Below are positions 1 to 23,729 of a DNA stretch of 38,572 bases, piece by piece (positions within the stretch are counted from its first letter, which is position 1; each line of letters opens with the position of its first letter). Under the pieces are notes generated by a model. The model saw only the letters and a list, made by a program, of their open reading frames with translations. It searched no databases and was not told the DNA's origin. Source of the DNA: Hahella sp. HN01 (GTDB lineage: Bacteria > Pseudomonadota > Gammaproteobacteria > Pseudomonadales > Oleiphilaceae); assembly GCF_018986435.1 (NCBI RefSeq), contig NZ_JAHMIN010000039.1:25028-63599 (forward strand), in the 5' to 3' direction. A program made the position numbers and the translations under genes.

Positions 1-3000
1 TGCTGCTGCAGATATTCCGCCAGTCTCTGGATGTTGTTGTAGCTGAACAAGGCGTTTGGCGGAACCTGAGCGCCAAAGGTCTTGCCGATATCCTGCGCCA
101 GGGTCTGCATCATGACGGAATTAAGACCCAGGTCGCCCCAGCTCTTATCCGCGCTGATATCCTCCTCCGAGAGCCTGGTTAAGGCTTCCACCAGACGAGT
201 CAGTCCCGCCCGGATCTGCGCTTCGGAGGCGGCCTGTGAGATATTTTGACTGGCGTTATTAGCCTGCTGTCCGGAGTCCTGTTGCATGGAATCCTGAACT
301 GCAGATGAGGTGAAATGCTCGCGAATCTTCTCCTGATCGCCCACCAGCCCCATGACCTGGTCATACTGATCGGGGACGCCGTTGATCCAGGTGATGAAAA
401 GCCCCGCGCCCTGAGCCAGCGTCAACGGAACAAACCCGTAATGACGCCGCAGGTAATCCGCCAGAGAGCGATATTGATCCATCAGGTTTTCGCTATCCTG
501 ATCGTCGATCCACAGAGGCCAGTTGATGGATAGCGTATGGCCTTTGCGCGCCCCTTGTTTGACCCGACGATTGCGTTCCGCCGCAAACTCGTCAAGGAAA
601 CGATTGGCGGCGACATAATCGCACTGCCCCACATTGCCCATGATGCTGGACATGGAAGAAAACAGGCAGAAGAAATCCAGCTCCAGGTGGGCCGTGCAGC
701 GATCCAGTTGCCGGGTTCCCGCCACCTTCGCCGCCATGACCGCGGAGAAGTCCGCCAGCGACTTGTTCTGCACCTGGGCGTCTTTCAATACGCCCGCGGA
801 CTGAATGACGCCATTTAAGCGACCGTACTTTTGCAGGACCTCGGCAATCAGGCGCTCCGCCTGAACCGGGTCGGCGATATCCGCCCGCTGGTAACTGATT
901 TCGCCTTGCGGCCACTGCTGCAACCAGGCTTTCCGCTCTGGCGACAGGGCGGAGCGTCCGACCAGAATCACTTTGGCGTTGTAGTCCGCGTGCAGACGTC
1001 GGGCGATTTCTCTGCCGATCATGCCCATGCCGCCGCTGATCAGATACACGCCATCCTGACGCAAACGCGTTCCTTGAGACGGTTCAATGCAGGTCAGGCT
1101 ACGCTCACTTTGTTCACCTTCCCGGCGTTCCACTTCCTTGAATTCGTCCCCGGTTTCGGCCTGTTCCGCCAACAGCCAGCGCCAGTCCTCCAACTCCCAG
1201 GACCCAGCGGGCTTGACGATCTGCGCCTGCCTGTAACGAACCGGGGTATTTTCCAGCGCCAGCACTCTGAAAACCCCGCCCATGGCGATGTTTTCAGGGG
1301 TCTGTCGGCTATCGCTGACATTTAATATTACGCAAGGGCGCGAACAGTCCTGCATCGCCTTCGCCAGGTTCAACGCCGACGCGTCGCTCCAGGAGACGTT
1401 ACAGTTAATCCAATAAATCTCTTGCTGATTCAGTTCATTGGCGATGTAATCCAGCGCCTGGGTGAAATCCTCCAGGTGATCAGGCCGCAGGGTCAGGACG
1501 TCGTGCTGGAAACTCAACGCCGTTCCTGGACTGACGCGCAGAACCCGCGCGCCGTCGATCATCGACGGCAACGCCTGCTCTGACGGCGCCATCACCGCCA
1601 CCAGCGGGATTGGCTTCAACAATGCTGGAGGGTCCCTGTGTCGCCATACCGGCGTCAACAATACCGCGGGCGTCGAGTCCGGCGTCGGCGCTAAACTTGG
1701 CGTGATTTGTTTAGCTGAATTAATCACCGCCGAAACGACTTCCGCCTGCAGCGTCGGCGCCCAGTAAACATCACGGGCGAACGGATACTTTGGAGCCCCT
1801 CGCAGCAGGGATTTCACTGGAAAGCTGCCAGCGAAGTCGACGCTGTCCCCTTGCAGGTAGGCGCGCATTAACGATGCAAATGCCCCGCTCGTCGGCCTGT
1901 TCGTTTCAGACGTATTTGCGCCTTCCAGTCTGTCGATCAATGCGGGAACTGACGCCACGACATAACATTCCCGCTCGGCGTGGTGTTGTCGAGCGCAGCA
2001 CAGGGTGTAGCTCAGACTGTATAAGCTGACTTGCGATTGATCGCGCAAATACGCCGCCAGTTGCTGTTTCACCCGTCGCAGACCGCTGCGATTGGGCGCC
2101 GACAAGGCGATAAGAGTCTCCGATTGCGCCGGGATCGCAGCGGACTCACTCGCAAGATATTGCTGCAGAATAACGTGTCCGTTAGCGCCCCCCGCTCCAA
2201 ACGAGCTGAGCCCGGCGAAGCGGGTGGCCGCTCCCGCCAGAGGCCAGGGCTGCTTCTCCCGCACCAGTTGAAAGCGGGTTTGTTCGATATTCAGATAGGG
2301 ATTCTCAATGGCGCAATGCAGCGTGGGAGCAAGCTGCTCATGGGCGAACTGCTGGACCACCTTGAAGAGTCCCGCCATCGCGGCGGCGGACTCCAGATGC
2401 CCGATATTGCTTTTCACCGAGCCGAGGTAACAAGGCGCGTCCGCCCCCTCCAGATCAGCGCCATATGCGTTTTGCAACGCCTGCAGTTCAATGGGGTCGC
2501 CCAGGCTGGTGCCGGTGCCGTGGGCCTCGATGTAGTTAACCTGGGCGGGATTCACGCCGGACTTTCGCAAAGCGTCCTGAATCACCCGTTGCTGCGCCCG
2601 CGCTGACGGAACCGTAAAGCTGCTGGTTTTGCCGCCGGAATTAATCGCCGTGGCGCGTACGATGGCGTAAATCACGTCCTGATCGCGTATGGCGTCGGCG
2701 ACAGTCTTCAACACCACTGCCGCAGCGCCTTCGCCGGGAACATAACCGTCCGCCTCCACGCCGAAAGCGTGACAATGTCCGCTGGCGCTGAGGAACTTGC
2801 CTTGCGACAGCAGCCGGTATTTGCCCGGGTGCGCCATGATATTCACGCCGCCGGCCAGGGCTATGCGGCACTCGCCCAGACGCAGGCTGTTGCACGCCAT
2901 ATGCAACGCGGTCAGAGATCCCGAGCACATGGTGTCCACGGTCAGGCTGGGGCCTTGCAGATCGAATGCATAAGATACGCGGTTGGCGATGGCGGCGAAG

Positions 3001-5192
3001 GAACTGCTCACGACCCTGCCGGGGGCGTTCATGTCCTGATAATGGCCGAACATGGCGGCGGCGAACACGCCCACCTCCTGGCTGGGGGAAACAAAGTACC
3101 CCGCGTCTTCCAGAGCATGGTAGCTGACTTGCAGAAAACGTCTTTCCTGAGGATCAAGCAGTTCTGCGTCCACCGGCGCAATGTTGAAAAAAGCTGGATC
3201 GAACTCCGCGACGCCCGGCATAAAACCGCCATGACGGCCGTAGGCGGCGTCCGCCTGCGCCGCGGAGGCGGAGTAATCCCGCCGCCAGTCCCAGCGATCT
3301 TGCGGGATGACGCGCACCGCGTCTTCGCCGTCCGCCAGAGACCGCCAGAACGCTTCCGGCGTCGCGCCATTGGGGAATTCCCCCGCCATGCCGATGATGG
3401 CGATGTCGTCGTCCCGATAAGCGTCCGTCGAGAGTTTGGGTTGGTTGGTCAACGTTGGTGCAGCGCCGCCGCCATGAGTTTTGACAAGCTCAGAGTTAGC
3501 CTCTTTGGCGTCAGGCGCTTTGTCTGTGGCGGCGATTTGCGCTTGTTCGGCAGGTGCTGTTTCCACTTGCTGGGACGCCGCAGCGCCGTCCGTGTCCGCC
3601 AGACAGGCGCATAGCAGCGGCTGCGCCCGCTCCATCAAATGCTCCGCCAGTTGCCTGATGGTGGAACACTCAAACAAGATAGCGCGACTGAGTTTGAAGT
3701 CGCCCTGGGGCGACAACTGCGCTGCAATGTCCGTGCTGATCTGAATGCTGGCGACGCTGTCGAGGCCTTTGTCCAGCAGGTTGTCATCATCCTTCAGCGT
3801 TTTTATTCCGCTATGGCGACGGAAGATTGCTTTCAGCCAGCGGCGCGTTTTTTCTTCCAATGCGCCCTGATCCATTGTCGATACAGGAGAGTCCGTGGAC
3901 GCCTGAGATTGCGTCTCGCTCGCTGGAACCACTATGTCCGTGCGCAACGCCCCCATTCCTTCCGCTACGCCTTCATAGATCACCAGATGACGTTCTCCCG
4001 CGGCCAGGGCGGACAGCATACGTTCACAGGCCGGCTGCGGCTCCAGAGGGCGCAGCGCTGATTCGTCCGTCATTTGCATGCCCTGGGAGCGCCACAGGCC
4101 CCAGGCGAAGCTATACCAGTTGGGTAGCTGCTCCGACGCCAGTTCGACGAACTCATTGGCCGCCCCGTAGGCGCATTGCCCCACATTGCCGATGGTCGCG
4201 GTCAGGGAACTGAAGTTGACCACGTACTGCGGCCGGTAATCCTGCTGCAACGCCGCCAGATTCAACACCACGCCGACTTTGGCGAGCAGCGTCCTGTGCA
4301 GGCGCTCCGCATTCAGGTTGTGAAACAGACAGTCGTCCAGGGTTCCGGCCAGGTTAAACACCGCCTTGATAGCGCCGAATCCCTGCTCAATATGGGTGAA
4401 AGCCGCTTTCAGCACGCCATAGTCCGTGGCGTCGACGCGCAGGTAGCTTCTCACGCCATACGCCTTCAAGGTCTGCGTTAATGCGGCGTCAGGCGCTTTA
4501 CGGCCCAATACGAATACATTCAGACGACGGGAGGATTGCAGTACGCGGATCAGTTCCTGACCCACGCCGCCAGCGCCGCCAATCAGCACGATATTGTCGC
4601 CATGGTTGAACGGGACGCCTCCGGCGTCACCCTGCCCGGCGGCGATCCAGGATTCCAAAGACAGGCCGGTCTCATCAAAACACAGGCGGCGTCCCGGCCA
4701 GGCGAGCGCAGCGGCGATACGACCGGATAAAGAAGCGCCAATGGGGCCAGAGGGAATACGTGCGGAAGTGAAAACACAACGGGGCATTTCCAGGCAGGCG
4801 GAGCGCGCCAGTCCGTCGAATAACGCGGTGAGCGCATCTTCCTGAGCATGAAATGACAGCAGACGCATTGGACGGTTTTGCGCGAATACCCAGCGCAGCA
4901 GCTCAAGGCTGCGACGACTACAGGACATCCAGCTCGCCTGAGTCAGCGACGCCAGGGGCTGATTGCGACCGACAATGACTGCAACGACGTCCCGACCACC
5001 GTCGATGCGAGCCAGCTCCGCCCGCATCGCCGCCTCATCCGCGACCTGATCCAGGCGCAGAACCGCCGCGCCCATATGGCGTGCGGCCTCCTCCGCCTCG
5101 GCGCTGTCCGTCGCCACCAGCACTCGCTCCGCCTGAATTTCGCCGTAGGGAGGCGCGGCGACCTCCGTCAATTGCCGTTTTAATATTTCCAT
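1..5192 (-). CDS. Trans-AT type I PKS, KR-ACP-KS-KR-ACP, 3' end outside the window (LkcF-like)
   Basis: The frame is open from the ATG at 5192 to the left edge (over 1,730 residues). Domains in order: ketoreductase 1 at about 195-380, with a GGAGGVG nucleotide-binding loop, an LDD motif and catalytic Tyr342 in YGAAN; an ACP with its phosphopantetheine Ser479 (GLDS); a ketosynthase at about 595-1010, with Cys756 in DTMCSGS, HGTGTSLGDP and NIGHLE, so all three catalytic residues are present; ketoreductase 2 with GGMGMIG, LKD and Tyr1526 in YVAAN; and an ACP with Ser1692 (GLNS). There is no AT domain, so it depends on the acyltransferase at 7317-8198. A KR-first start means it completes the module whose KS-DH ends the 8259-14042 protein. 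Six anchor residues fall in one frame, so I see no frameshift. The start has a poor ribosome-binding site. The role as the LkcF equivalent is inferred from domain and gene order. Confidence 0.93.
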   Translation of the reverse strand, partial: MEILKRQLTEVAAPPYGEIQAERVLVATDSAEAEEAARHMGAAVLRLDQVADEAAMRAELARIDGGRDVVAVIVGRNQPLASLTQASWMSCSRRSLELLRWVFAQNRPMRLLSFHAQEDALTALFDGLARSACLEMPRCVFTSARIPSGPIGASLSGRIAAALAWPGRRLCFDETGLSLESWIAAGQGDAGGVPFNHGDNIVLIGGAGGVGQELIRVLQSSRRLNVFVLGRKAPDAALTQTLKAYGVRSYLRVDATDYGVLKAAFTHIEQGFGAIKAVFNLAGTLDDCLFHNLNAERLHRTLLAKVGVVLNLAALQQDYRPQYVVNFSSLTATIGNVGQCAYGAANEFVELASEQLPNWYSFAWGLWRSQGMQMTDESALRPLEPQPACERMLSALAAGERHLVIYEGVAEGMGALRTDIVVPASETQSQASTDSPVSTMDQGALEEKTRRWLKAIFRRHSGIKTLKDDDNLLDKGLDSVASIQISTDIAAQLSPQGDFKLSRAILFECSTIRQLAEHLMERAQPLLCACLADTDGAAASQQVETAPAEQAQIAATDKAPDAKEANSELVKTHGGGAAPTLTNQPKLSTDAYRDDDIAIIGMAGEFPNGATPEAFWRSLADGEDAVRVIPQDRWDWRRDYSASAAQADAAYGRHGGFMPGVAEFDPAFFNIAPVDAELLDPQERRFLQVSYHALEDAGYFVSPSQEVGVFAAAMFGHYQDMNAPGRVVSSSFAAIANRVSYAFDLQGPSLTVDTMCSGSLTALHMACNSLRLGECRIALAGGVNIMAHPGKYRLLSQGKFLSASGHCHAFGVEADGYVPGEGAAAVVLKTVADAIRDQDVIYAIVRATAINSGGKTSSFTVPSARAQQRVIQDALRKSGVNPAQVNYIEAHGTGTSLGDPIELQALQNAYGADLEGADAPCYLGSVKSNIGHLESAAAMAGLFKVVQQFAHEQLAPTLHCAIENPYLNIEQTRFQLVREKQPWPLAGAATRFAGLSSFGAGGANGHVILQQYLASESAAIPAQSETLIALSAPNRSGLRRVKQQLAAYLRDQSQVSLYSLSYTLCCARQHHAERECYVVASVPALIDRLEGANTSETNRPTSGAFASLMRAYLQGDSVDFAGSFPVKSLLRGAPKYPFARDVYWAPTLQAEVVSAVINSAKQITPSLAPTPDSTPAVLLTPVWRHRDPPALLKPIPLVAVMAPSEQALPSMIDGARVLRVSPGTALSFQHDVLTLRPDHLEDFTQALDYIANELNQQEIYWINCNVSWSDASALNLAKAMQDCSRPCVILNVSDSRQTPENIAMGGVFRVLALENTPVRYRQAQIVKPAGSWELEDWRWLLAEQAETGDEFKEVERREGEQSERSLTCIEPSQGTRLRQDGVYLISGGMGMIGREIARRLHADYNAKVILVGRSALSPERKAWLQQWPQGEISYQRADIADPVQAERLIAEVLQKYGRLNGVIQSAGVLKDAQVQNKSLADFSAVMAAKVAGTRQLDRCTAHLELDFFCLFSSMSSIMGNVGQCDYVAANRFLDEFAAERNRRVKQGARKGHTLSINWPLWIDDQDSENLMDQYRSLADYLRRHYGFVPLTLAQGAGLFITWINGVPDQYDQVMGLVGDQEKIREHFTSSAVQDSMQQDSGQQANNASQNISQAASEAQIRAGLTRLVEALTRLSEEDISADKSWGDLGLNSVMMQTLAQDIGKTFGAQVPPNALFSYNNIQRLAEYLQQ

Positions 5193-5265
5193 TCAAACAC
5201 CACTGTAAATATGCGTTGAGTCTTCCGTGTTGCTGCGCCGAAGCCTTCTACAGCCAAACCATCCC

Positions 5266-5289
5266 CATAGCGCCGCCAGCGACGCTATG
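5266..5289. repeat. Short inverted repeat in the gap between the isochorismatase-like gene and the downstream PKS
   Basis: CATAGCG (5266-5272) and CGCTATG (5283-5289) can pair around a 10-nt loop in the 120-bp gap 5193-5312. No T-run follows on either strand, so this is at most a processing or weak pausing hairpin. The rest of the gap shows nothing I can name. Confidence 0.35.
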
Positions 5290-5312
5290 TTTTCGCCCAC
5301 AGTCAGGCGCGA

Positions 5313-5867: not shown

Positions 5868-5879
5868 TGTCCGACTCCT

Positions 5880-7298: not shown

Positions 7299-7316
7299 AT
7301 TGATTACCTCTATGGG

Positions 7317-8198
7317 TTAAGCCTGTGCGTGCGTCGCAACCGCATGCTGAATTTTTCCCTGCAGATTGGTAAGCACCCGTCCCGGCCCCAGTTCGACAAA
7401 CTGCGCCTGCGGGTAGCGCCGCAACAGGCTCCGAATGGTCAGCGACCAGCGCACGGGTTTTACCAGCTGAAACGCCATTTCTTCGATGAGATGCTCGCCG
7501 CCAATGGCGCCGCCGCTGGTGCTGGAAATCACGGTTTTCTGCGGCGCTTTCAACTCAAGGCCCAGCAGAAAGTCAGTGAACTGCACCCGGCAGGGCTCCA
7601 TATAACGGGAATGAAACGCCCCGCTGACCGGCAACGGCACACAGCGAAGCCCCTCCTTTTCCAGCAGTGGAGATAGCCGCCGCATGCGCTCTTCCTGGCC
7701 GCTCAACACCACCTGGCCCGGCGCGTTATCATTCGCCACATCGACATCAAAACAGTCGAGCTGAATCAGCTTTTCTCTTAACCTGTCGGCGCTGACGCCC
7801 AACACCGCCAACATGCCGCCGCCACGGATGGCCTGCATCAGCTCTCCGCGTTTGGCGACGATGCGAAGCCCGGTCATCAGATCGAACACTCCCGCTGCGA
7901 ACAGCGCCGGAAACAGCCCCAGGCTGTGCCCGAGCAGACGTCCCTCAAAGGTGTTATGAAAGCGGCGGCCGGACTGACTCAGGTAGTCCAGGTAGGTCAG
8001 GCAGCACACAAAGTACAGCGCCGGCTGCGTATAGGCGGTCTGATTCAAACGCCCTTCCCGATCATGCAGGCACAGGTCGACGAGGGAGTAACCCAGGACC
8101 GCTTCCGCTTCCTGGCGCTGCGTCGGGTAGCGCTCGAACAAATCTTTTCCCATGCCCGGATGCTGCGATCCCTGGCCGGGGAACATCAGTATTTCCAT
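7317..8198 (-). CDS. Free-standing malonyl-CoA:ACP acyltransferase (trans-AT, LkcD-like)
   Basis: 293 residues from the ATG at 8198, chosen because GGAAG lies 10 nt upstream and the FabD-like FPGQGSQ starts at once; a start at 8228 would add ten unconserved residues. The FabD fold is complete: GQGSQ at 8-12, nucleophile Ser92 in GHSLG, Arg117 in KRGELM, which binds the malonyl carboxylate, and His196 in GAFHSRYM. It is closest in pattern to PksC/BaeC-type trans-acyltransferases. It should load malonyl units onto the ACPs of the three AT-less synthases encoded around it. The residue after GHSLG, usually Glu, is Leu95. The retained Arg argues for an acyltransferase rather than a proofreading acyl hydrolase. 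Confidence 0.93.
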   Translation of the reverse strand: MEILMFPGQGSQHPGMGKDLFERYPTQRQEAEAVLGYSLVDLCLHDREGRLNQTAYTQPALYFVCCLTYLDYLSQSGRRFHNTFEGRLLGHSLGLFPALFAAGVFDLMTGLRIVAKRGELMQAIRGGGMLAVLGVSADRLREKLIQLDCFDVDVANDNAPGQVVLSGQEERMRRLSPLLEKEGLRCVPLPVSGAFHSRYMEPCRVQFTDFLLGLELKAPQKTVISSTSGGAIGGEHLIEEMAFQLVKPVRWSLTIRSLLRRYPQAQFVELGPGRVLTNLQGKIQHAVATHAQA

Positions 8199-8258
8199 GA
8201 TTTCAACACTTCCATCGTTGTGATTCATCAGGCGGTTTCACTGCCGTTTGGACCGGCC

Positions 8259-11200
8259 TCAGCTAAGGTCAAACACTTCAAAACGAGGCTCCGGCCGCAC
8301 TTGTCGAGGGCGCGTATCGACCTCGTCTTCCCCGTGTGGACGCACCACGACGGACACCATGTCATCCAGCATGATCAGCACCTCTCCCTGTCTGTCGGTG
8401 AAGTAGAAATCAAAGCGTCTGGCTTTGCTGGTCTGGGCAGTGGTTTTCTCCAGGCAATAGCCGTAAACCGCTTCGTTGTCCGGCAGCCGGTTCACCACCA
8501 GACGCCCCAGGTGATAAGGCATAAAGACAGCCGTTTCGCCATCGCCACTGCTCTCTGCCGCGCCCGCCGGCGCCAGAATCGCCAGTTGCAGGCCGGCGTC
8601 CAGCAGCGCCGGAGACACCAGGCGCCCCCAGTCGTGGTCGACCTGTAGAAACGCCCTGACCAGGCCCGGTCTGATCTGCGCCCAGCGAATGCCCTGCAGG
8701 GGCGCGCCGTAGTCATAACCGCGTTGCTGGAAGTCCCCATAAATTTCCGCCTGAGAGCGGCGGGGAGCGTTATCTATGTCTATCGCCTGCAATGGGTTTT
8801 CCACACCCAGGCGCGCCAATACGGTCGAGATATGTTGCGGAGTACTCTCGTCGCGGGTTCGCTCTGCGCTGCAATACTCGGTGAAGCCGCCGCGTCCGAC
8901 GAAAAGTGTGCGGCCGCCCTCCTCGATCACCTCCACGTTGTGGGGGTCAGTGATCATGTCTTTCCACATAATGTTGGCGAAGCCGCCGTCATCGGCGCTT
9001 TCGCACAAAGTCGACAAGGTCCAGGCGGCGGGCGCCATGGTGCGACCGTTGATGCGGTGCGCCTGCGTCAACGAGTGGAAGCCCTTGAAGTTGGATTCAA
9101 TCGAGTCAATCCAGTGACGATGGCGACTGAACACATACTCCGGGACCGCCGCCAGCCGGCGCTGCGGATAGACGTCGCGCCAGGGCAAATCATTTCCGGC
9201 TTCATACATGGCGGCGACGTTTTCAGCGTTATCGCGGGTCAGACGTTGTGGGGCCGCCTGTGGCGTTTGTCCCGATGTCCCTTTCTGTGACGCGACGCCT
9301 GTCATTTGCAGATCCCGCCCCAGTTGCTGAATCAGATCAGCCTGATCGCGGCACACCAGCGCCCGACGGAAGCGCTCGTGATCCCGCGCGCAGGCCAGCG
9401 TGTACGCCAGCGCATCCATATCCACCGGCCCCTTCTGCAGCCAATCGCGCAGGGCGTCGAGGGTCTGCTGCAGTCCCGCGCTGCTGTGATGTGACAGCGG
9501 AATGACATAAATCTCTTGCCTGGTTGGGCCTTGTGCAGCGTCGGTAATGGTTTCTGGCGAGGTTAACGCCTGCGCCACGCCCTGAATCACCACATGGGCG
9601 TTGCCGCCGCCGGCGCCGAAAGAACTGACGGCGGAAACCCTGGGGGCTGCGGCGTCCCATTCTCTCCGCTCTCTGTTCAGCAGGAACGGGGTCTGAGTGA
9701 AATCCAGATGGGGATTGAGCTGCTCAGCGTGCAGTGAGGGAACCCACTCGCCGTGGCGCATTTGCAGAACGGCCTTTAGCACGCCGCAAAGTCCCGCCGC
9801 CGATTCCAGGTGGCCCACGTTCGACTTCACCGAGCCCAGACGAATACTCTGCGGCGCGGCCGCCCCGTAGCTTTTGCTTAACGCGCGCAGTTCAATGGGG
9901 TCGCCCAGTTCCGTACCAGTGCCGTGCGCCTCCACATAGCCCACCTCCTGTGCGGAGACGCCGGCGGCTCGCAGCGCTTTGCCGATCAGCGCCGCCTGAG
10001 CCTCAGGATTGGGCGCGGTATAGCCGTTGGAGCGACCGCCGGCGTTGATGGCGGAGCCCTTGATGAAGGCGTACACGCGATCATTATCGCGAATGGCGTC
10101 CTCCGCCCGTTTCATCACCAGGCAGATTACGCCTTCGCCATCCACAAAACCGTCCGCATTGGCGCCAAACGGCTTGCACTGTTCGCTGCGGGACAGCATG
10201 TGCAGACCGCACAGCTGCTCGTAATGACGGGGATGAGTAATGAGGTTCACGCCGCCCACTACCGCCTGTTCGCAGTCGCCGTTTTTCAGCGCCTGACAGG
10301 CCAGATGCAATGCGGTGAGCGAGGCGGAGCACGCCGTGTCCACCGCCATGCTGGGGCCGCGCCAGTCAAAAAAGTAGGACGCGCGATTCGCCATCGACCA
10401 GAACAAAGAGGTCGCTGGCGCTGTGGACGCTTCTACCGGGGTGTGCCAGGCGTAATCGCCATTCATCACCCCCACGAACACCGCCGTGTCGCTGCCCGCC
10501 CATTGCTTGCGGGTATAACCCGCGTCCAGCATTGAGCGATAAGTCTGCTCTAGCATAATCCGCTCTTGCGGGTCCATTCTGGCGGCTTCGTTGGGCGTCA
10601 GATTGAAAAACACATGATCGAAGGCGTCCACGTCGTCAATAAATGCGCCGCGATTGGTGTAGCTGCCGCGACCGTTGAGAGGAGCATCCGTGAGGAATCC
10701 TTCCTGCTTCCAGCGTTCCGCCGGAATCACATCGGTGCAATCGCGACCCTGACGTAGATTTTCCCAAAAATGCGCTACATCCCGCGCCTTCGGCAATCGC
10801 GCCGACATGCCGATAATGGCGATATCGCCGGGACGCCATAACGATTTTTCTGGCGCGCCAGAGGATGATTGCGCATCCCGTTCAGGCTCATCGGCGCCAC
10901 TACTGTCCGCATGTTGGCCTGTCTCAGAGGACTGGGCTGGCGTGCTATCTGATGTGGCCTCGTCTGAGGACGAAGTCGCCACCGTGGTCGCCAGATATTC
11001 CGCCAGTTGGCGCAGGCTGGGATATTCAAACAGCACCGTGGCGGGCAGATAGCCGAATATCTCCTTCAATGGACGAATCAGCTCCAGCGAAATAATAGAA
11101 TCAACGCCGTATTCCTGAAACGGCGTATCCGCCTCCACATCCTCCGGCTCCATCATCATGGTGTCCGCAATGACCGTGCGAACCTGGTTCATGATTTCCG

Positions 11201-14042
11201 CCAAACTGTCCCGGCTCGGCGGCGTTTTTTCTACCACAGGAACCGCAACCGGCTCAGCGCTCGACTCCCCTTCACCCCAGGCCAGCCCGGAGATGAATAT
11301 ATGCTCCGCCAGCTGTCGGATAGTGGGATATTCAAACAGGATCGTGGCGGGCAAATATCCCGTTTTCTCTTTGATCGGCTTCAACAGCTCCATAGAGATC
11401 AGCGAGTCGACGCCCATTTCACTGAAAGGCATATCGCGCTCGATTTCACTGGGATCAAATTGCAGCACTTCGGCGATAACCTGCTGCAAAAACGCTTCAA
11501 TAGACGCCTGACTGGCGACCCCAACCTGGGACACAGTTTGCGCCGCCGCACTGCCTTGAGATGGCTCTATGGGGACAGCTTCCGCCTGGGGCGCAGTGTT
11601 TTCGGACACAGCGCCTTGCTGCGCGGCAGCTCCGGCGAAGCCGACGATAACTTGCTGATCTTCGCCGCCATGGGCGTCCACGCCCTGGAATCCCGCCTGC
11701 ACAATCAAACGCCGCCAGCTATCGCCGGACAGCAAAGGACTGTTGGGAATGCGATACGCGTCCTGACTCAGCCACCAGCCGTCCGTCAGGCCGAAGGTCA
11801 ACGTCGCGTAATCCTGGCAGGAAGTGATTTCGTTGAGCACGAATACGCCGTCGTCACGCAGCAGGCGACGCACCTGGCGCAAGGTTTCCGGCAGGTCCGA
11901 GGTGGCGTGGATGACGTTGGTGGCGATGACCACATCGAAGGGTTCTTCGAACGCAGGCGGCTTCTCGATATTGCAGATTTTGTATTCTACAAAGGGGTAG
12001 TCAGCGAACCGGCGCCTGGCCTTGTTCAAAAACGCGAAAGACAGATCGGTAAAGGTGTAGCTCACATTGTCCGGGGCCAGTTCCGGCAGCACAAACTGGG
12101 TGGTGCTGCCGGTGCCGGCGCCGATTTCGATAATACGCAGAGGGCGTCCCGCGCGGGCCTTTTGCAAGTTGGCGACGATCCTCGCCACGACCTGGTTAAA
12201 GTAGTCCGCAATGGGATTGTCCCGGTATACCGGTTCAACCAGCTCAAAGCCGCCATCGGGGAAAATCACGCTCAGTGGGTTGGTCTCCCCGCGCAAAATA
12301 GCGGGCAGATTCTCAATACATTGATCCAGCAGGCGGATATGCCCTTGCAGCTCTGGATAGCGGCGTATCACTTCCTCGCGTTGCGGGGAATGTCCCGCCC
12401 TGATGCTACGGAGCGCCGCCGCCAGCTTGCCGAACTTCGGCGCAATGATTTCCGGCATAGGCGTCTGGCTCAAGCGCCAGCGCGCATACTCCTGCAAGGC
12501 GGCGGACATCGCCTCGTTGCGGGCGACTAACGGGTCCTGCGTGCGATACGCCGGGATCAAGTCATCGCCGGTTGCTGGAGCGGCAGGCGCCTGGTCCTTG
12601 AGTTGGGGAGGCGTTTGAGTCGTTACGTTTTTAGCCATTGCCTCTTGAAGTGCGGCATGAGGAGCGATATTCAGGCGTTTCAACGCCAGATCAGACGCTT
12701 TCACCACAGTGATTTGTCTGCGCTCGGTCACCAGAAAACGCTCAATAACGGCGAGGCCCTCGTCCACTTCGATAGAGCCGATTTGCAGCTTTTTCATGCG
12801 CTCGCGATAGTGCTCCGAGGCCACGACGCCCACCGAGCCCCAAAAGCCCCAGTTGATGACCTTGCTGTTGATCATCAGTCCGTTGTGCAATAAATCCGCG
12901 AAGGCGTCTTTGGCCACGCAGGCGGCGGTGTAGTTGCCCTGACCCGGATTGGCGATATAGGACTGAATGGAAGAGAAAAACAGGCAGAAATCCAGCGTTC
13001 GTCCCTTCAACGCCCGCGCCAGATTGTAGGCGCCGTGAACTTTCGGCCGCAGCACATTGAACAGGGTCTGCTCGGACATCGCCGCCAGAGACGCATCCTC
13101 CAGCACCAGAGCGGAATGCACCACGCCATGAATCACGGCGTACTGGTCCAACACGGCCTGCAATGCGGCGCGGTCGCTGAGATCGACGGAGTGATAATGC
13201 GCCTCAACGGCGCCCAGATCGCGCAGTCGCATCAGCAGGTCGTTCGCCTCAGACCGACGTCCGAGGATAACCAGTTTCGCCTGATAGCGGACGGCCAGAT
13301 ATTCCGCCAGCTTGCCGCCCAATCCGCCGGCGCCGCCGAGAATCACATAGGTTCCCTGCTGACGAAAAGCAGATTGGACAGGCCATGGACTCAAGGTCGT
13401 CGGCTGCATCTCGGCGACGCCGTAGCGTCCCTCGGCGATACAGACCGGCGTTCCGGGCAGCGTCGGAAGCGATATGCGCAACAGGTCTTGCAGCGCGTCC
13501 GCCGTCAGCTTTTGCAGCGAGAAACTGCGTACAATCCATTCCGGACGCTCCTTGGCCAGCGTCTGCGCCAGCCCCACGTAGACGCCGTCCACAGGATGGG
13601 TGACGCTCTCAAACAACGGGCTGGCGACGGCTTTGTCCGTAAATACGTCCAGCTTGACCGCAGGCTTGTCGCCCAGCGCTTTCAGCAGATGGAAAAAGGC
13701 GCTGATGTCTTCATCCGGCACGGCGGCGCGCCAGGGAGTACGGGTTACGAAACATAGACGCAAAGTGGCGGAGCCCGCGACGGCACGCGCCAAATCATCA
13801 ATGGACTGAGGAGTTAGCAGACGCACGTCAGCCTGGGGCAAACGGTCAGCGATTTCCTGGCGCAACGCCGCTTGCGACGGTGGAACAATAATGATCCGGG
13901 GCTCCACCTCTTGCGCCTTCTCTTGCTCCGTCTCTTGCTCTGCCGTGGACACCGCCGGTAAAGGCAGAATTTTCCATGCGGGAGAAAATACCAGCGAATC
14001 GATAGCCGTTTGAGAAATTCCGGCAAATTCCATATCCCTCAT
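8259..14042 (-). CDS. Trans-AT type I PKS, KR-MT-ACP-ACP-KS-DH (LkcC-like)
   Basis: 1,927 residues (ATG at 14042; an in-frame ATG at 14033 is better spaced from GGAG and may be the true start). Ketoreductase at about 225-445 with GGAGGLG, LED and Tyr371, but the usual YxxxN Asn is Cys375. Carbon methyltransferase at about 560-790 with the SAM motif EIGAGTGS. Two ACPs carry Ser880 and Ser982, both GVDS. The ketosynthase, about 1070-1490, has Cys1238 (DTACSAS), HGTGTELGDP and NVGHLE. The C-terminal dehydratase has His1662 in HxxxGxxxxP and Asp1815 in DxxxQ. The N-terminal KR-MT-ACP-ACP completes the module whose KS ends the 14875-19932 protein; the C-terminal KS-DH is completed by the KR of the next PKS. 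Three condensing domains in the window for a long polyketide suggests iteration, as in lankacidin. Confidence 0.95.
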   Translation of the reverse strand: MRDMEFAGISQTAIDSLVFSPAWKILPLPAVSTAEQETEQEKAQEVEPRIIIVPPSQAALRQEIADRLPQADVRLLTPQSIDDLARAVAGSATLRLCFVTRTPWRAAVPDEDISAFFHLLKALGDKPAVKLDVFTDKAVASPLFESVTHPVDGVYVGLAQTLAKERPEWIVRSFSLQKLTADALQDLLRISLPTLPGTPVCIAEGRYGVAEMQPTTLSPWPVQSAFRQQGTYVILGGAGGLGGKLAEYLAVRYQAKLVILGRRSEANDLLMRLRDLGAVEAHYHSVDLSDRAALQAVLDQYAVIHGVVHSALVLEDASLAAMSEQTLFNVLRPKVHGAYNLARALKGRTLDFCLFFSSIQSYIANPGQGNYTAACVAKDAFADLLHNGLMINSKVINWGFWGSVGVVASEHYRERMKKLQIGSIEVDEGLAVIERFLVTERRQITVVKASDLALKRLNIAPHAALQEAMAKNVTTQTPPQLKDQAPAAPATGDDLIPAYRTQDPLVARNEAMSAALQEYARWRLSQTPMPEIIAPKFGKLAAALRSIRAGHSPQREEVIRRYPELQGHIRLLDQCIENLPAILRGETNPLSVIFPDGGFELVEPVYRDNPIADYFNQVVARIVANLQKARAGRPLRIIEIGAGTGSTTQFVLPELAPDNVSYTFTDLSFAFLNKARRRFADYPFVEYKICNIEKPPAFEEPFDVVIATNVIHATSDLPETLRQVRRLLRDDGVFVLNEITSCQDYATLTFGLTDGWWLSQDAYRIPNSPLLSGDSWRRLIVQAGFQGVDAHGGEDQQVIVGFAGAAAQQGAVSENTAPQAEAVPIEPSQGSAAAQTVSQVGVASQASIEAFLQQVIAEVLQFDPSEIERDMPFSEMGVDSLISMELLKPIKEKTGYLPATILFEYPTIRQLAEHIFISGLAWGEGESSAEPVAVPVVEKTPPSRDSLAEIMNQVRTVIADTMMMEPEDVEADTPFQEYGVDSIISLELIRPLKEIFGYLPATVLFEYPSLRQLAEYLATTVATSSSDEATSDSTPAQSSETGQHADSSGADEPERDAQSSSGAPEKSLWRPGDIAIIGMSARLPKARDVAHFWENLRQGRDCTDVIPAERWKQEGFLTDAPLNGRGSYTNRGAFIDDVDAFDHVFFNLTPNEAARMDPQERIMLEQTYRSMLDAGYTRKQWAGSDTAVFVGVMNGDYAWHTPVEASTAPATSLFWSMANRASYFFDWRGPSMAVDTACSASLTALHLACQALKNGDCEQAVVGGVNLITHPRHYEQLCGLHMLSRSEQCKPFGANADGFVDGEGVICLVMKRAEDAIRDNDRVYAFIKGSAINAGGRSNGYTAPNPEAQAALIGKALRAAGVSAQEVGYVEAHGTGTELGDPIELRALSKSYGAAAPQSIRLGSVKSNVGHLESAAGLCGVLKAVLQMRHGEWVPSLHAEQLNPHLDFTQTPFLLNRERREWDAAAPRVSAVSSFGAGGGNAHVVIQGVAQALTSPETITDAAQGPTRQEIYVIPLSHHSSAGLQQTLDALRDWLQKGPVDMDALAYTLACARDHERFRRALVCRDQADLIQQLGRDLQMTGVASQKGTSGQTPQAAPQRLTRDNAENVAAMYEAGNDLPWRDVYPQRRLAAVPEYVFSRHRHWIDSIESNFKGFHSLTQAHRINGRTMAPAAWTLSTLCESADDGGFANIMWKDMITDPHNVEVIEEGGRTLFVGRGGFTEYCSAERTRDESTPQHISTVLARLGVENPLQAIDIDNAPRRSQAEIYGDFQQRGYDYGAPLQGIRWAQIRPGLVRAFLQVDHDWGRLVSPALLDAGLQLAILAPAGAAESSGDGETAVFMPYHLGRLVVNRLPDNEAVYGYCLEKTTAQTSKARRFDFYFTDRQGEVLIMLDDMVSVVVRPHGEDEVDTRPRQVRPEPRFEVFDLS

Positions 14043-14048
14043 ACTCCT

Positions 14049-14906
14049 TTATTGTAAATGTGATGGTTTGACGCCCAGGTCAAAAACAGACAGCAAGGGG
14101 GTGTAGGTTTCGTCAAAAATAGTGAGGTTGGTGCGAAACGGAGACAGTTTTTCCGTTAGCACGAAGGCGCTGCCCAGGGCCTGATCGGGCAGCGCTCGAT
14201 GCAAGGTCAGCCGGCCCAGGGAATACGGCATCAGACTCTCCCGGCGTTCGCCGATGGAAATCGCCATGCCCGCCTGAAACGCACAGTCCAGCAGGCTGGC
14301 CCAGCCCAAAAAAACGCCGTCGTAATTACTGAGCCAGGACAGCGCCTTGTTGGACAGACGTTGCACATAGCTGATGCGTTGAAAGTAAGGGCCGTAGACG
14401 ATCCCCATGTCGGCGAAGGCGGCGTAAACCTCGCTTCGCGGAAAGTGATCCCGGGTCTCAGCGCCGACCTGACTGCGTACGCACAACGGCGTCGCCAGAG
14501 GATCAGCGCGCCCGGATACCGCCTGCGCATTCAAAACACCGCCGCCGCACATCTCTCCCCCATGTTCTATGCGGAACTCAATGCGCGTCGGGCTGATCGA
14601 CGCCAGTTGCACGTCGATCTCCGTCTCAGGCGTATTGGCGAGAACGGGCCGCAGCCAGACCACTTCGTCGACAAATCCGGTTGTGAAATCCGGCCGCGCC
14701 CTGGCGACGGCGCTCAAGGCCAGCTCCAGGTACACCACCCCAGGCAGGACTTTCCAGCCGCGCACGCGATGATGCGAAAAATAAGGGTGATCGTCTCTCA
14801 GGCTGACGCGGAATCCATCACCGGTTGGCAGGCTGCGCCAATGTCCTTCTGTATCGAAAAAAGAGTCTCTGGCTCTAATGCTTGCGCTCATAATCTGTCT
14901 CGCCAT
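14049..14906 (-). CDS. Free-standing polyketide dehydratase (LkcB-like)
   Basis: 285 residues, the length of one double-hotdog dehydratase domain. It has His46 in HxxxGxxxxP (HRVRGWKVLP), a YGPYF motif at 171-175 and Asp207 with Gln211 (DCAFQ), the full catalytic set for removing water from beta-hydroxyacyl-ACP. It overlaps the end of the NRPS-PKS gene by 32 nt and ends 6 nt before the next PKS, so all three are co-translated. It supplies the dehydration missing from the module formed by the upstream KS and the downstream KR-MT-ACP-ACP. An in-frame ATG at 14891 is better placed for ribosome binding and would remove five residues. A separate dehydratase gene in this position is a hallmark of lkc-type clusters. 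Confidence 0.92.
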   Translation of the reverse strand: MARQIMSASIRARDSFFDTEGHWRSLPTGDGFRVSLRDDHPYFSHHRVRGWKVLPGVVYLELALSAVARARPDFTTGFVDEVVWLRPVLANTPETEIDVQLASISPTRIEFRIEHGGEMCGGGVLNAQAVSGRADPLATPLCVRSQVGAETRDHFPRSEVYAAFADMGIVYGPYFQRISYVQRLSNKALSWLSNYDGVFLGWASLLDCAFQAGMAISIGERRESLMPYSLGRLTLHRALPDQALGSAFVLTEKLSPFRTNLTIFDETYTPLLSVFDLGVKPSHLQ

Positions 14907-17900
14907 CCTTAGCTGTTGTCGTTACCTGCGCCAATCCTGTTTGCTGTTTGGCGTACCGCCCGGTCTGGTTCTTGGCGTACCAATAGTCGCGTTCGTCGAA
15001 CGCATAGGTCGGCAGCCTCATTTTGCCGGCGCCGGCGCCCTCATACAGACGCAGCCAGTCGATATGGCGTCCTTGTAGAAAATTCGATCGCACCTGCGCC
15101 AGATAATCTGGATCGTCCAGCGTTCCGGGATAGGTCGCCTCGTCTGGAGCCAGGCCTTGATTATCCTGACTTTGTTCATTCAGGGATTGACCGTGTCGAG
15201 GCGCATGCACGCCAACATGGCCGGAATGGAGTTGCGTCAGCAATTCGTCCGCGCCGCTCACCAGCCAGGCGTGGCGATACTCAAAATGCTCGCGCCCGCA
15301 GCTCAACGTGAAAGCCAGATCAAGCAAGCCGCTCTCCCCGAGTTCCGCGCGACGTTCGGCCACGAAACGCGCCAGCGCCGCCATACTTTTCTGCAACGCG
15401 CTTTCGGTACGGGCGGAAATGGGAATCAGGTATTGGTCAGGGTGATTGACCGAACGCCGCTCCCGCCGCGGAGGCGCGGACAAGACAACATGGGCGTTGG
15501 CGCCGCCGAAACCAAAGGAGCTGACGCCCGCCGTCAATGGCTGTTCGCTGCGCCAGGGAATACTGTCCGCCAACACCTGAAACGGTGATGATGACAGATC
15601 GATCTCCGGGTTCAGTTGCTGAAAATGCAGATTGGCGGGCAGTTGTTCGTACTCGAAGGCCTTGATGACTTTCACCACTGACGCCACGCCCGCCGCCGGC
15701 TCCAGATGGCCGATGTTGGATTTGACCGCGCCCAGCCAGACGGTTTGAGTCGCTTCGCCATTAGTGCGTTCCCGCAAGGCGCGTTTCAGCGCCGCCACTT
15801 CAATGGGGTCGCCCAGGCGGGTGCCTGTGCCATGGGTTTCGATATAGCTGACCCGCTGCGCCAGTTCCGGCGTGTAAGCGTCCAGCAACAGGCGATATTG
15901 CGCGTTGGGATTCGGCGCCGTCAGCGAGTTGGCTTTGCCGCCGTGATTTTCCGCCACACTTTCAATGACGGCGTGAATGAGGTCTCCGTCCGCCTGCGCG
16001 TCCTGCAAGCGTTTCACCATAAAACAGCCCACGCCTTCCCCTCTCACATAGCCATTGGCGCTGGCGTCAAAAGTGGCGCAGCGGCTGTCCGGGGACATAA
16101 AACGCCCCGCCTCCAATCCTTCGTTGATCTGCGCATCCAGAATCAGATTGACGCCTCCCACCATGGCGGCGTCGCAGGCCTGGGCTTGCAGATCCCGACA
16201 GGCCTTCACTAGCGCCGTCAGCACGCCGGAGCAGGCCGTATCCAGAGTAAAGGACGGGCCATTCCAGTCAAAGAAGGCGGAAATACGATTGGCCAGGATG
16301 CTCAGTGAGTGTCCCGACAAGGAGTACGGCGTCTGTTTTTCGCCGTCGCGAGCCTGCAGTAAGGCATAGTCGCTGCCGGTGGCCGCCATATAGCATCCGA
16401 TGCGGCCGCCAGCCAATTGAGATGGCGCATAGCCTGCGTCTTCCAATGTTCTCCAGGCGGCCTGCAGCAATAACCGCTGGCGCGGGTCCATCCTGGTGGC
16501 TTCCAGGGGAGAAATGGAGAAAAAGCGCGCGTCAAATCCTCTGACCGAAGAAATGAAACCGGCTCGGTAGCCCGGCAAAGAGCGGTCCGCCGGAGCCTCG
16601 GAGATACAATCCTTACGATCCAATAAGGCGCGCCAGAAACTTTCCGCATCGTCTCCGCCCGGCAAGGTGGCCGACATGCCGACAATCGCCAATCGGTCGT
16701 CTCCGTTGCCGTCACGACGACGGTCAACGCTTCGCTCTTGCGATCTGGCGATCCGCTCCGGGGATTGACGTTGACGGATAGCTCCGGCCACCTCATTGAT
16801 GGTGTTGAACTGATAGAACTCGTAGCTGCGAAACGCAATGTCGAAGCGCTGCTGAATCGCGGCGGCCAGCAGGTTGTAACTGATGGAGTTCAGACCCAGC
16901 CACCCAAGAGGCTGATCAAGATCGAGGGCGCAGACATCCAGCGTATCCAGCAGAATGCGCTGGATCTCCTGCTGAATTCCCTGCTCCTGCGGAACCGCCG
17001 CTGGCTGCGCTGACGAGGCTGACAACGTCTGAGTTCTAAGGGGTAAATCCGTCATCGCGGCTTCGCTCAGGAGTTTGACGTCCGCTTTGCCGTTGGCAGT
17101 TAGCGGAATACGGCTCAAACGATGCAGCGCTTTCGGCGTCATGTAATACGGCAAAGCGCGTCGACACCATTGCATGGCTGCGTCGACGTCCAATGTGCTG
17201 CTCTCAGGGGCCCAGACAAAGCAGCACAGATGCGCTTCCGGCGTGCGCCTGACCACGGTGAAAACGGCGGCGTCCGGGGCGAATTCTTTCAGGCGGTGAC
17301 TCACCTCGCCGGTATCGACCCGATAGCCGTTCACTTTGTACTGACTGTCCCGGCGGCCGACGTATTCAATGTCCTGATGGGACAGGTAATGCACGATGTC
17401 GCCGGTTTTGTAGGCGCGCACGCCATTCGGCAAAGTGACAAAAGCCCGCTCTGAGGGCGCGTTCAAATAGCCTTTGCCAACGCATTCGCCCGCGATCGTC
17501 AGTTCGCCCTGCATTCCCGGCGCTACGGAGTCACCCTGCGCATCCAGTATGTAGTAGTCAGTGTTGAACACCGGTTGCCCCAAAGGAATCCGTTCCGCTT
17601 CCGTCACCCGGCGGCAGCTGGCCCAGATCGTCGCCTCAGTGGGACCATACATGTTGTATAGCTGTCCAGTCTGTTGCAGCAGGTATTGCGCCAGTTCTTT
17701 ATCCAGAGCTTCGCCGCCGCACAGAATGGTCAATTCGCCGTCGGCGCGCCAACCCGCCTGTTGCAGCATACGCCAGGTTGACGGGGTCGCCTGCGCGACG
17801 TCCGCCCGCCGTTGATTGAGCGCAGCCCCCAGCAATTCAGCGCTCATGCGGACCTGATCGGAGACGATATGCAGCTCACCGCCGCACATCAGCGGCAATA

Positions 17901-19932
17901 GCAATTCAAGGATGGAAATGTCAAAACTGACAGGCGTCAGGGCGAGCATCCGTTCGCCAGCCTGAAACCCCGGCGAGGCCTGCATCGACAGGAGAAAGTT
18001 CGCCAGATTGCGTTCACTGATCACCACGCCTTTGGGCCTGCCGGTGGACCCGGAGGTGAACATCACGTAGGCGGTGGCGTCGGGGTTCGCGTCCTCCGCC
18101 AATGGCTGCTCAAGACCCTCTGCTCCACTGGCGGACTCTGTGATCACCAGAGCGAGTGCAGCGTCGACATTGATGATCGTCGCGTCGGGAAACAACGTTT
18201 CCGCTCTGGCGCGCGTGCGCTCATCCACCAATAGGACGCCGACATTGGCCACATCCATCATGTAGCTGAGCCGTTCATCCGGCAGCAGCGGGTCCATGGG
18301 CGTGAAAGCGCGCTGAGACGCCAGGGCGCTCAGATAGGCCACTGGCAACGCCGCCGACCGCTCCAGAAACACGCCTATGCTGATGCGCCCAGCAGAGACA
18401 TTCGTCGAGCCATTTGTAGAGACATCCAGATGCGTCTTGATTTCGCTATACAGAAGACCGACGGCGGCGCAGGTTTGACGATAAGTCAGACTCGTCCGCT
18501 CATCACTGATTGCAGGCGCATTGGCGTGCTGTTTACCAGCCTGGGCCACCCTCGCCAGAATGCGCGCATGCGGCGCAGCCTCGTTGCGTTCGCCGCAGAT
18601 AACTGGCGCCAAAGGCTGACTGATACTGCATTCACGCAGTGCACGCTCAGGCGATGCGGCGATAAAAGTCGCGACCTTGATAAAGTTATCCGCCAGCGTC
18701 GTCAGGGTTTCCCGCGCCAGAAAGCGGGATGATGAATCGAAAGACAAAAACAGCTGATCGCCGTCGCTGCTGAAGTTGATGGTGAGATCATTCTGACCTC
18801 CGGTATCCGGGCGTTCGGTCAACTCCACATTGCATCCCGTCAACACCGGAGCGGCATAAGGCACGAGTCCGTCAGAGGCGTTCACCACCAGATTAAACAA
18901 ACGGCCGCCATGATTGGCGCGCGGGTCCGCCCATTCAACCAACTGCAGCGCGGGCGTATGTTGATGCGGGCGTACAGCCTGTCGCGCCTGTTTGACGCAA
19001 GAGAGCAATGTCGCGCCGGCTTGATCGGGGTTAACCTTGACGAACAGCGGAATCAGGTTGGTGAAGCAGCCATAGGCTTGCGGCTCGCTCCGACAATTGA
19101 CCGTATGAGCGATAGTAACAGGCGCTTCATCCTGATCTTCCGTCGCTGAATACAGTCTTATGACAGCAGCGGTAACCGCGACGACGAACTGAAACAAAGT
19201 GAGGTCACGCTGTTCCAACAGGGAGCCGATTGCAACGACGCCCTCTCCCTCTGATGTCGTTTTCTCCGTCAGCGTAGGCTTGGCCAATGTACGTTTGATA
19301 GGCCATGTACGCTTGACCGAGAGATACACGCCTTTCTCTTTTGGCGTTTTGAAACAGAATGGCAGCGGCTGCGACAGACGCGCGCCTTGCAAGCCCGCCT
19401 TCCAATAATCAACGGACGTCTCTTTAACCGGCGTTTCGCCGATTTGCAGGAACGATATGTCCGCGTCTTCCCTGGCCTCACCAGCCAGGCTTTCCCGACG
19501 ATTCCAACAGTCAGACAATGTATTTATAAAAGGTTGATAACACTCGCCGTCAAAGACTAAATGACTAAACTCTAATTTCAGGTCAGTGATCTTTTCGTCT
19601 TCAATAAAGCAAGTAAATCTGAATAACTTATCGCCGGCCGGATCAATAGGCTCTGATTGCGTCCATTGCGATTTATCAGTGACGATATCCACCACTTTTT
19701 CCGGCAATCTATTATCGCCAACTAAAAGCGCATCGCCCCTTTCTAAAAAGTAACTTAACAGGCCGTTAAATCCTTTTAAAAGCGTCGCTTTTAAAATGGC
19801 ATTCAATACCTGAAACTCAATATTTCCGGCTACTTTAAACTGGTACTTTAGTGTCAGACCGGGGTCGTCAGGGTTACGTCGATAGCGCAGCCACTGAAAC
19901 TGTTCATAACGGGTTGCCTTACGTAATTTCAT
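14875..19932 (-). CDS. Hybrid NRPS-PKS loading protein, C-A-PCP-KS, glycine-specific (LkcA-like)
   Basis: 1,685 residues. The N-terminal condensation domain (1 to about 440) has SHLVFDG at 123-129: catalytic His124 and Asp128 are present, but the first His of HHxxxDG is Ser. The adenylation domain (about 455-960) has FTSGSTGRPKG near 624-634 and YGPTEATIW near 757. Aligned by eye to GrsA, its pocket reads D-I-L-Q-L-G-M-I-W, one step from the known glycine code. The carrier has Ser1016 (LGLNS). The ketosynthase (about 1080-1530) has Cys1234 in DTACSG, HGTGTRLGDP and NIGHLE. No carrier precedes the condensation domain within the protein, so it may N-acylate the loaded glycine, as proposed for lankacidin. 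The first gene of the operon, it starts with only a weak purine-rich site (GAGAAAG). Confidence 0.95.
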   Translation of the reverse strand: MKLRKATRYEQFQWLRYRRNPDDPGLTLKYQFKVAGNIEFQVLNAILKATLLKGFNGLLSYFLERGDALLVGDNRLPEKVVDIVTDKSQWTQSEPIDPAGDKLFRFTCFIEDEKITDLKLEFSHLVFDGECYQPFINTLSDCWNRRESLAGEAREDADISFLQIGETPVKETSVDYWKAGLQGARLSQPLPFCFKTPKEKGVYLSVKRTWPIKRTLAKPTLTEKTTSEGEGVVAIGSLLEQRDLTLFQFVVAVTAAVIRLYSATEDQDEAPVTIAHTVNCRSEPQAYGCFTNLIPLFVKVNPDQAGATLLSCVKQARQAVRPHQHTPALQLVEWADPRANHGGRLFNLVVNASDGLVPYAAPVLTGCNVELTERPDTGGQNDLTINFSSDGDQLFLSFDSSSRFLARETLTTLADNFIKVATFIAASPERALRECSISQPLAPVICGERNEAAPHARILARVAQAGKQHANAPAISDERTSLTYRQTCAAVGLLYSEIKTHLDVSTNGSTNVSAGRISIGVFLERSAALPVAYLSALASQRAFTPMDPLLPDERLSYMMDVANVGVLLVDERTRARAETLFPDATIINVDAALALVITESASGAEGLEQPLAEDANPDATAYVMFTSGSTGRPKGVVISERNLANFLLSMQASPGFQAGERMLALTPVSFDISILELLLPLMCGGELHIVSDQVRMSAELLGAALNQRRADVAQATPSTWRMLQQAGWRADGELTILCGGEALDKELAQYLLQQTGQLYNMYGPTEATIWASCRRVTEAERIPLGQPVFNTDYYILDAQGDSVAPGMQGELTIAGECVGKGYLNAPSERAFVTLPNGVRAYKTGDIVHYLSHQDIEYVGRRDSQYKVNGYRVDTGEVSHRLKEFAPDAAVFTVVRRTPEAHLCCFVWAPESSTLDVDAAMQWCRRALPYYMTPKALHRLSRIPLTANGKADVKLLSEAAMTDLPLRTQTLSASSAQPAAVPQEQGIQQEIQRILLDTLDVCALDLDQPLGWLGLNSISYNLLAAAIQQRFDIAFRSYEFYQFNTINEVAGAIRQRQSPERIARSQERSVDRRRDGNGDDRLAIVGMSATLPGGDDAESFWRALLDRKDCISEAPADRSLPGYRAGFISSVRGFDARFFSISPLEATRMDPRQRLLLQAAWRTLEDAGYAPSQLAGGRIGCYMAATGSDYALLQARDGEKQTPYSLSGHSLSILANRISAFFDWNGPSFTLDTACSGVLTALVKACRDLQAQACDAAMVGGVNLILDAQINEGLEAGRFMSPDSRCATFDASANGYVRGEGVGCFMVKRLQDAQADGDLIHAVIESVAENHGGKANSLTAPNPNAQYRLLLDAYTPELAQRVSYIETHGTGTRLGDPIEVAALKRALRERTNGEATQTVWLGAVKSNIGHLEPAAGVASVVKVIKAFEYEQLPANLHFQQLNPEIDLSSSPFQVLADSIPWRSEQPLTAGVSSFGFGGANAHVVLSAPPRRERRSVNHPDQYLIPISARTESALQKSMAALARFVAERRAELGESGLLDLAFTLSCGREHFEYRHAWLVSGADELLTQLHSGHVGVHAPRHGQSLNEQSQDNQGLAPDEATYPGTLDDPDYLAQVRSNFLQGRHIDWLRLYEGAGAGKMRLPTYAFDERDYWYAKNQTGRYAKQQTGLAQVTTTAKDGETDYERKH

Positions 19933-22366: not shown

Positions 22367-22551
22367 TTTAACGCCTCCAAAAACCTTTTTTGGATATAAC
22401 TTATTACCATTTCTGCATCCTCACAATTTACCATCCAGATTAAGATATAGACTTGATAAATGAGCAGCCCCCTAGCCTTAGGTTATGCCAAATTAGTACA
22501 CTCAAATACTCTGAGAAAGCAATTTATTTTTATAGACAACCAACTTCACAC

Positions 22552-22869: not shown

Positions 22870-22870
22870 T

Positions 22871-23053: not shown

Positions 23054-23080
23054 AGTTTTGATGCTAATAACTGCTGACTA

Positions 23081-23719: not shown

Positions 23720-23729
23720 GTCCTCTCCC

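Follow-up and report, generated by a model that had tools for sequence, protein, structure and literature searches.

Known lankacidin and chejuenolide systems

The closest described relatives of the locus analyzed here are the chejuenolide (che) cluster of Hahella and the lankacidin (lkc) cluster of Streptomyces. Chejuenolides are ring-shaped products of marine Hahella and are closely related to lankacidin, an antibiotic. The che cluster was reportedly published in J. Antibiot. in 2018, and its proteins were compared here through genome G753, which we take to be H. chejuensis KCTC 2396. For the lkc cluster, described on plasmid pSLA2-L of S. rochei, the comparison was made through plasmid pSGRIFU1 of S. 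griseofuscus.

Papers are cited below from the sections that we consulted. The pSLA2-L cluster is also given in PMC3570484, which describes an lkc-type cluster without PQQ genes in H. chejuensis KCTC 2396 and a putative lankacidin cluster in P. fluorescens F113. Chejuenolides have been reported from Hahella (PMC9030710, PMC9881209). They contain an acetamide in place of the 2-hydroxypropanamide branch of lankacidins (PMC9881209).

Organization of the cluster

The window, a stretch of 38,572 nucleotides from Hahella sp. HN01, spans positions 25028-63599 of its contig, and its right edge is the right end of the contig. The draft genome comprises 7,128,576 bases in 134 contigs. Open reading frames and Pfam domains confirmed the order read by an earlier note on this DNA, namely C-A-PCP-KS, free DH, KR-MT-ACP-ACP-KS-DH, free AT and FAD amine oxidase (Table 1). 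Beyond the genes listed there, an isochorismatase-like gene was found, and the open reading frame at the left edge was recognized as the first part of a synthase of the LkcF type. The contig to the left of the window completes cheF and then encodes CheG (ACP-KS-ACP-TE, LkcG type, 1048 aa) and an MFS pump, identified by Pfam. The three ketosynthase (KS) domains noted earlier are all present in the window, and the left flank brings the total in the cluster to five. Among the cluster proteins scanned, Acyl_transf_1 was found only in the 303-aa protein, indicating a discrete AT and modules without an AT domain. No NCBIfam family scored above its cut-off for the genes of the oxidase, the isochorismatase-like protein, the AT and the DH.

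Table 1. Features of the cluster and identity of the encoded proteins to their counterparts. Coordinates are those of the window unless marked.
Feature	Coordinates	Strand	Basis	aa identity to G753 (%)	aa identity to S. griseofuscus (%)
CheA/LkcA-type hybrid NRPS-PKS, C-A-PCP-KS, 1685 aa	14875..19932	-	Pfam, homology	84.5	48.4
CheB/LkcB-type free dehydratase, 285 aa	14049..14906	-	Pfam, homology	92.6	51.5
CheC/LkcC-type KR-MT-ACP-ACP-KS-DH, 1927 aa	8259..14042	-	Pfam, active-site motifs, homology	88.5	53.1
CheD/LkcD-type free acyltransferase (trans-AT), 303 aa, GHSLG motif	7317..8228	-	Pfam, motif, homology	90.8	53.3
CheE/LkcE-type amide oxidase and macrocyclase, flavin amine oxidase by Pfam, 472 aa	5880..7298	-	PDB match, catalytic residues	96.7 (first 429 residues)	62.4
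LkcH-type isochorismatase-fold protein, 184 aa	5313..5867	-	Pfam, alignment to 2b34	95.7	60.3
CheF/LkcF-type synthase KR-ACP-KS-KR-ACP-KS, first 1730 residues in window	1..5192	-	Pfam, motifs, homology		
Full cheF, 2350 aa, crosses left window edge	contig 23167-30219			88.6	47.7
cheG	10031-13177 of left-flank stretch L005			88.5	51.5 (residues 115-1045)
MFS pump				97.6	53.7
KS domains in window	2691-3410, 10095-10826, 15997-16698				
KS domains left of window	contig 24187-24876, 22110-22817				
Candidate regulator, small ORF divergent from cheA	21099..21863	+	weak Pfam HTH_26, E 5e-4, under cut-off		

The candidate regulator lies within a DNA block common to three other Hahella genomes (G752, G753 and G756), and is thus conserved beside the cluster. 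Further right, positions 22300-26560 are AT-rich (about 43% GC, compared to 59% in the cluster) and contain small open reading frames, including a HAD hydrolase (23081-23740). This segment looks like a variable region, since only pieces of at most 1.1 kb align to the compared flanks of the three sister genomes. At the other side, two tandem Imm11-family immunity genes directly follow the MFS pump (L005:7130-8202). Type I restriction-modification genes HsdM, HsdS and HsdR are located at the left end of the contig (L006:511-8443).

Orthology with the che and lkc clusters

Gene-by-gene comparison with the Hahella and lankacidin-type clusters found counterparts for all nine genes. The order and orientation in the H. 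chejuensis che cluster are the same, and the two align as one block of 28.6 kb with 88.1% DNA identity. They also share the N-terminal ACP of CheG, the isochorismatase-like gene between the E and F genes and the MFS pump after the G gene. With amino acid identities of 84.5-97.6%, they differ by species-level divergence only. In G753 the LkcE frame breaks near residue 429, past the catalytic residues, whereas the frame in the window is open to 472 aa. Blocks of 28.4-29.0 kb with 85.8-88.3% DNA identity are found in all three Hahella genomes compared (G752, G753, G756), the left end of the shared block being the end of the sequence compared.

LkcE was searched in 38 genomes, our own included, and 27 pass E 1e-40. 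A close LkcE (E 4.4e-264 or better) is present in four of them, all Hahella and including our own; the rest are weaker amine oxidases (3.7e-58 or worse). The close LkcE thus occurs in three of the six other congeneric genomes. The 16S rRNA is about 100% identical (rounded) to those of G752, G753 and G756, 96% to G755 and 95% to G757, and 94% to a fragment from G754 over 356 bases. Identity is about 91% to Pseudomonas sp. TH31 and 80% to Haematospirillum, so an alphaproteobacterial host, which the similarity of LkcE to that of Haematospirillum had suggested, was rejected.

The cluster on pSGRIFU1 shares the LkcA-G order, the five KS domains, the LkcE catalytic residues and an LkcH homologue, at 47.7-62.4% amino acid identity. 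Unlike the window, the plasmid carries HAD-IIIC and free ACP genes close to the cluster and encodes PqqC, LkcH is placed after LkcG, and LkcG has no N-terminal ACP. In Pseudomonas sp. TH31 and BGI-2, homologues of LkcA-G are found in the part compared (about 39-62% identity), and LkcH is located between the E and F genes as in the window. They differ from the window in that the part compared contains no match to the MFS pump, and PqqC is encoded elsewhere in the genome.

Ketosynthase phylogeny and module iteration

A total of 62 KS stretches were extracted, and 60 were used in a first tree; two partial Klebsiella KS (<300 aa) were left out. A second tree with 63 rows includes Rickettsiella, and Burkholderia KS 1 and 3 were dropped from its original 65 for long branches. 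No KS scored above the 100-bit limit in our own FabF stretch or in the initial 3 kb of the S. griseofuscus locus. For Pseudomonas sp. TH31 and S. longispororuber the comparison was by tblastn, outside the tree, and Streptomyces SID14478 was unused.

KS domains group by position. Positions A (9 rows), C (10), F1 (9), F2 (9) and G (8) form five clades with support of 100/99 or better, in trees for which the program warned of several long branches. These clades hold rows from Streptomyces, Pseudomonas and Hahella. In the first tree each positional group is set apart by a single branch in all 200 bootstrap trees, and over both trees in 99-100% of them. The first tree also contains 15 other KS, three from our own genome, and none of these is located inside a positional clade. 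The KS therefore do not group with unrelated trans-AT clades, and an unrelated trans-AT assembly line was ruled out by the five positional clades. The earlier note had proposed a match to lkcA-lkcE and to the chejuenolide cluster of Hahella, and both the orthology and the KS tree support it.

The Cys-His-His triad is present in all 60 KS rows, including the five of our cluster. KS_A pairs with KS_F2 (100/100), and KS_C with KS_F1 (98/93; 88/82 in the second tree). This pairing may point to an origin of LkcF by duplication. Five KS were also found in the clusters of S. griseofuscus and NBC_01224. For the lankacidin system, four KS and eight KS-mediated extension cycles were counted (PMC6162330). 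Since lankacidin requires eight extensions, modules must be used iteratively with five KS or with four as in that count. The iterative use that was proposed when only three KS were in view therefore still follows.

The CheE macrocyclase

Among PDB entries, CheE matches LkcE (6f32) with an E value of 6.3e-192, and the next family (2z5x) only with 5.9e-08. The residues E64, Y168, Y182, R326, T397 and Q428 in the LkcE structures (6f32, 6fjh, 6f7l, 6f7v) are all present in the window protein. E64, R326 and Q428 are found in 13 of 13 LkcE rows, and Y182 and T397 in 12, the exception being a homologue in genome G222. The roles of these residues are described in PMC6162330, and inactivation of cheE is reported to show its role in macrocyclization (PMC9881209). 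Compared to LkcE, H65 is replaced by Tyr and N179 by Thr, both in the window protein and in the remaining rows from Hahella, Haematospirillum and Pseudomonas; Tyr at position 65 occurs in eight of the 13 rows.

The G222 homologue (L044:9752-18216) is an LkcE-like oxidase with 48% identity, in which E64 and R326 are kept and Y182 and T397 are Phe and Ala. It is located outside any lkc cluster. Its neighbors are A-PCP, AT-like, aldehyde-dehydrogenase-like and glucose/sorbosone dehydrogenase genes.

LkcH and the N terminus of CheG

Alignment of the LkcH-type protein to 2b34 revealed an Asn14-Lys-Cys triad instead of the Asp-Lys-Cys triad of isochorismatases. Asp is replaced by Asn and Cys is kept in all seven proteobacterial LkcH rows, whereas the three Streptomyces rows keep Asp and have Val for Cys; these counts cover the proteobacterial and Streptomyces rows. 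LkcH has been named as a candidate for C-7 acetyl transfer (PMC6162330). Because the triad is broken at a different site in each lineage, a shared Cys-dependent hydrolase or transferase mechanism is unlikely.

The N-terminal ACP of CheG (GVDSI at residue 32) aligns in all four Hahella clusters. It was not seen in LkcG of the five further clusters for which the beginning of the gene was examined (S. griseofuscus, NBC_01224, S. cellostaticus, Pseudomonas BGI-2 and Rickettsiella). In Rickettsiella LkcG the KS begins at residue 21, and the Haematospirillum contig ends short of this gene.

Starter unit and product

The adenylation code of CheA, DILQLGMIWK, is identical in LkcA of our strain, G753, S. 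griseofuscus and NBC_01224. We set the code positions by motif and take the code to specify glycine. A HAD-IIIC gene, presumed to provide the lactoyl starter, and PqqC (TIGR02111) were found in none of the four Hahella genomes with the cluster. On pSGRIFU1 the HAD-IIIC gene near the cluster is a self-match, as the query is from that plasmid, which also encodes PqqC. This gene would serve the lankacidin starter, although the plasmid carries another PKS too. PqqC is present and no HAD-IIIC gene was found in both Pseudomonas genomes with an lkc-type cluster. The one Haematospirillum genome has no PqqC match, and a partial 36% HAD-IIIC match is located on a different contig. With neither HAD-IIIC nor PqqC found in the four Hahella genomes, the product is likely to be chejuenolides built on an acetyl starter.

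The cluster is thus very probably the che cluster of Hahella, which belongs to the lankacidin/chejuenolide family of iterative trans-AT NRPS-PKS systems. This assignment is based on gene content and order, orthology, active-site residues, KS grouping and the lack of HAD-IIIC and PqqC matches. LkcE chemistry, the cheE inactivation and the chejuenolide structures are taken from papers. The use of modules and chejuenolides as the product of this strain we infer, together with an acetyl starter in CheA, which is suggested by the lack of a match to the presumed lactoyl-starter gene. A sister species is already known to have this pathway, and the window provides one more che cluster.

In the proposed pathway, CheA would load glycine, and its C domain would acylate the glycine, most probably with an acetyl group. 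Malonyl units, which CheD as the discrete AT would load, would then be added to the chain by CheA, CheB (the discrete DH), CheC and CheF, and some modules would act more than once. CheG would end the chain, and its TE would release a β-oxo-δ-lactone. CheE would then oxidize the amide of the N-acylglycyl group, giving an iminium, and would close the 17-membered carbocycle through an intramolecular Mannich reaction (C2-C18). Loss of the lactone by decarboxylation would give chejuenolides.

Compared to G753, the C domain (80.7%) and the C-terminal stretch (79.8%) are the least conserved parts of CheA, and PCP-KS is 90.3% identical. Another acyl starter is therefore conceivable. This divergence would also fit a variant che cluster that makes a new congener, unlike chejuenolides A-C in starter, oxidation or stereochemistry. 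We consider this very unlikely, as the proteins can be aligned from end to end with those of three sister clusters, no domain-sized gain or loss was seen, and chejuenolides A-C are still produced by strain NBU794, which has 88.2% ANI to KCTC 2396 (PMC9030710). The earlier suggestion of a new family member, which applied to a host not known as a producer, is likewise weak, because the host genus is the source of the described che cluster and of chejuenolides. A true lankacidin cluster, with a lactoyl or pyruvoyl starter, C-7 acetylation, PQQ-dependent oxidation and lankacidin C as product, would also contain the LkcA-G and LkcH homologues and the adenylation code of Streptomyces LkcA, but it is scarcely credible here, with HAD-IIIC and PqqC not found in our own or the three sister genomes and with 84.5-97.6% identity to G753 against only 47.7-62.4% to S. 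griseofuscus. We therefore assign the locus as a further che cluster for Hahella, complete and with open reading frames.

Distribution of lkc-type clusters

A survey that excluded records near the window's own genome yielded 67 pattern matches, which correspond to eight loci in Haematospirillum, Streptomyces (four), Pseudomonas (two) and a bin labeled Candidatus Melainabacteria. The nearest named LkcE in this survey is from Haematospirillum, an alphaproteobacterium, with 80% identity. At E 1e-60, LkcE was found in two of 398 genomes of the sampled phylum (our own and G222), and in two of 369 of the sampled class (our own and G669, a Rickettsiella described below). Orthologous clusters from Actinomycetota, Alphaproteobacteria and Gammaproteobacteria, some complete and others cut or partly compared, can now be placed side by side. 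This comparison allows tests of which modules iterate, of the role of LkcH and of how LkcE controls stereochemistry.

The Melainabacteria-labeled bin (L012) contains an lkc fragment with the end of LkcC, LkcD and LkcE, 50-60% identical to the window. The label is doubtful, because its KS groups with Streptomyces. 'Lankacidin-like' clusters of the redox-cofactor type, with 13% similarity, have been reported in Pseudomonas (PMC8704066); they carry no weight as evidence here.

A divergent cluster in Rickettsiella

The comparison also points to a family member in an intracellular bacterium of woodlice. The 1.5 Mb genome of 'Candidatus Rickettsiella isopodorum' (G669) contains a divergent lkc-type cluster (C31:85939-107863; L065/L066), and it is the only one of the 16 genomes of the family with LkcE at E 1e-60. 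The genes are rearranged into two sets on opposite strands, F-G-A and C-D-E. LkcA is 36% identical, has the C-motif SHLIFDG and contains a C-terminal DH, a fused LkcB, that is 33% identical to LkcB. Identities are 38% for LkcG, 37-46% for LkcF, 39-40% for LkcC, 48% for LkcD and 49% for LkcE, which is cut by the contig end. LkcH was not found in this genome at E 1e-15. In the 63-row tree, each of the five Rickettsiella KS is located within one of the five positional groups.

The 1862-aa open reading frame at C31:85939-91527 matches A1D18_02135 (1,862 aa, contig_196: 85,801-89,600; PMC5181103). That paper, from 2016, lists a single gene that carries a polyketide synthase domain and has matches in Legionella, Pseudomonas, Hahella and Streptomyces; neither lankacidin nor chejuenolide is mentioned in the main text. 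The Legionella match may represent a further lkc-type member. In the related R. viridis, the sections consulted of PMC6016236 report no PKS genes. The literature searched contained nothing that links Rickettsiella with lankacidin.

Taken together, the five-KS line and its Mannich macrocyclase are probably a wandering unit that reached an intracellular arthropod bacterium. Rickettsiella would then make its own lankacidin-like carbocycle in the woodlouse, and the Hahella line would have changed its end, by the extra ACP of CheG, and its starter. The Rickettsiella cluster adjoins a PPTase gene and VirB8/CagX/TrbI genes.
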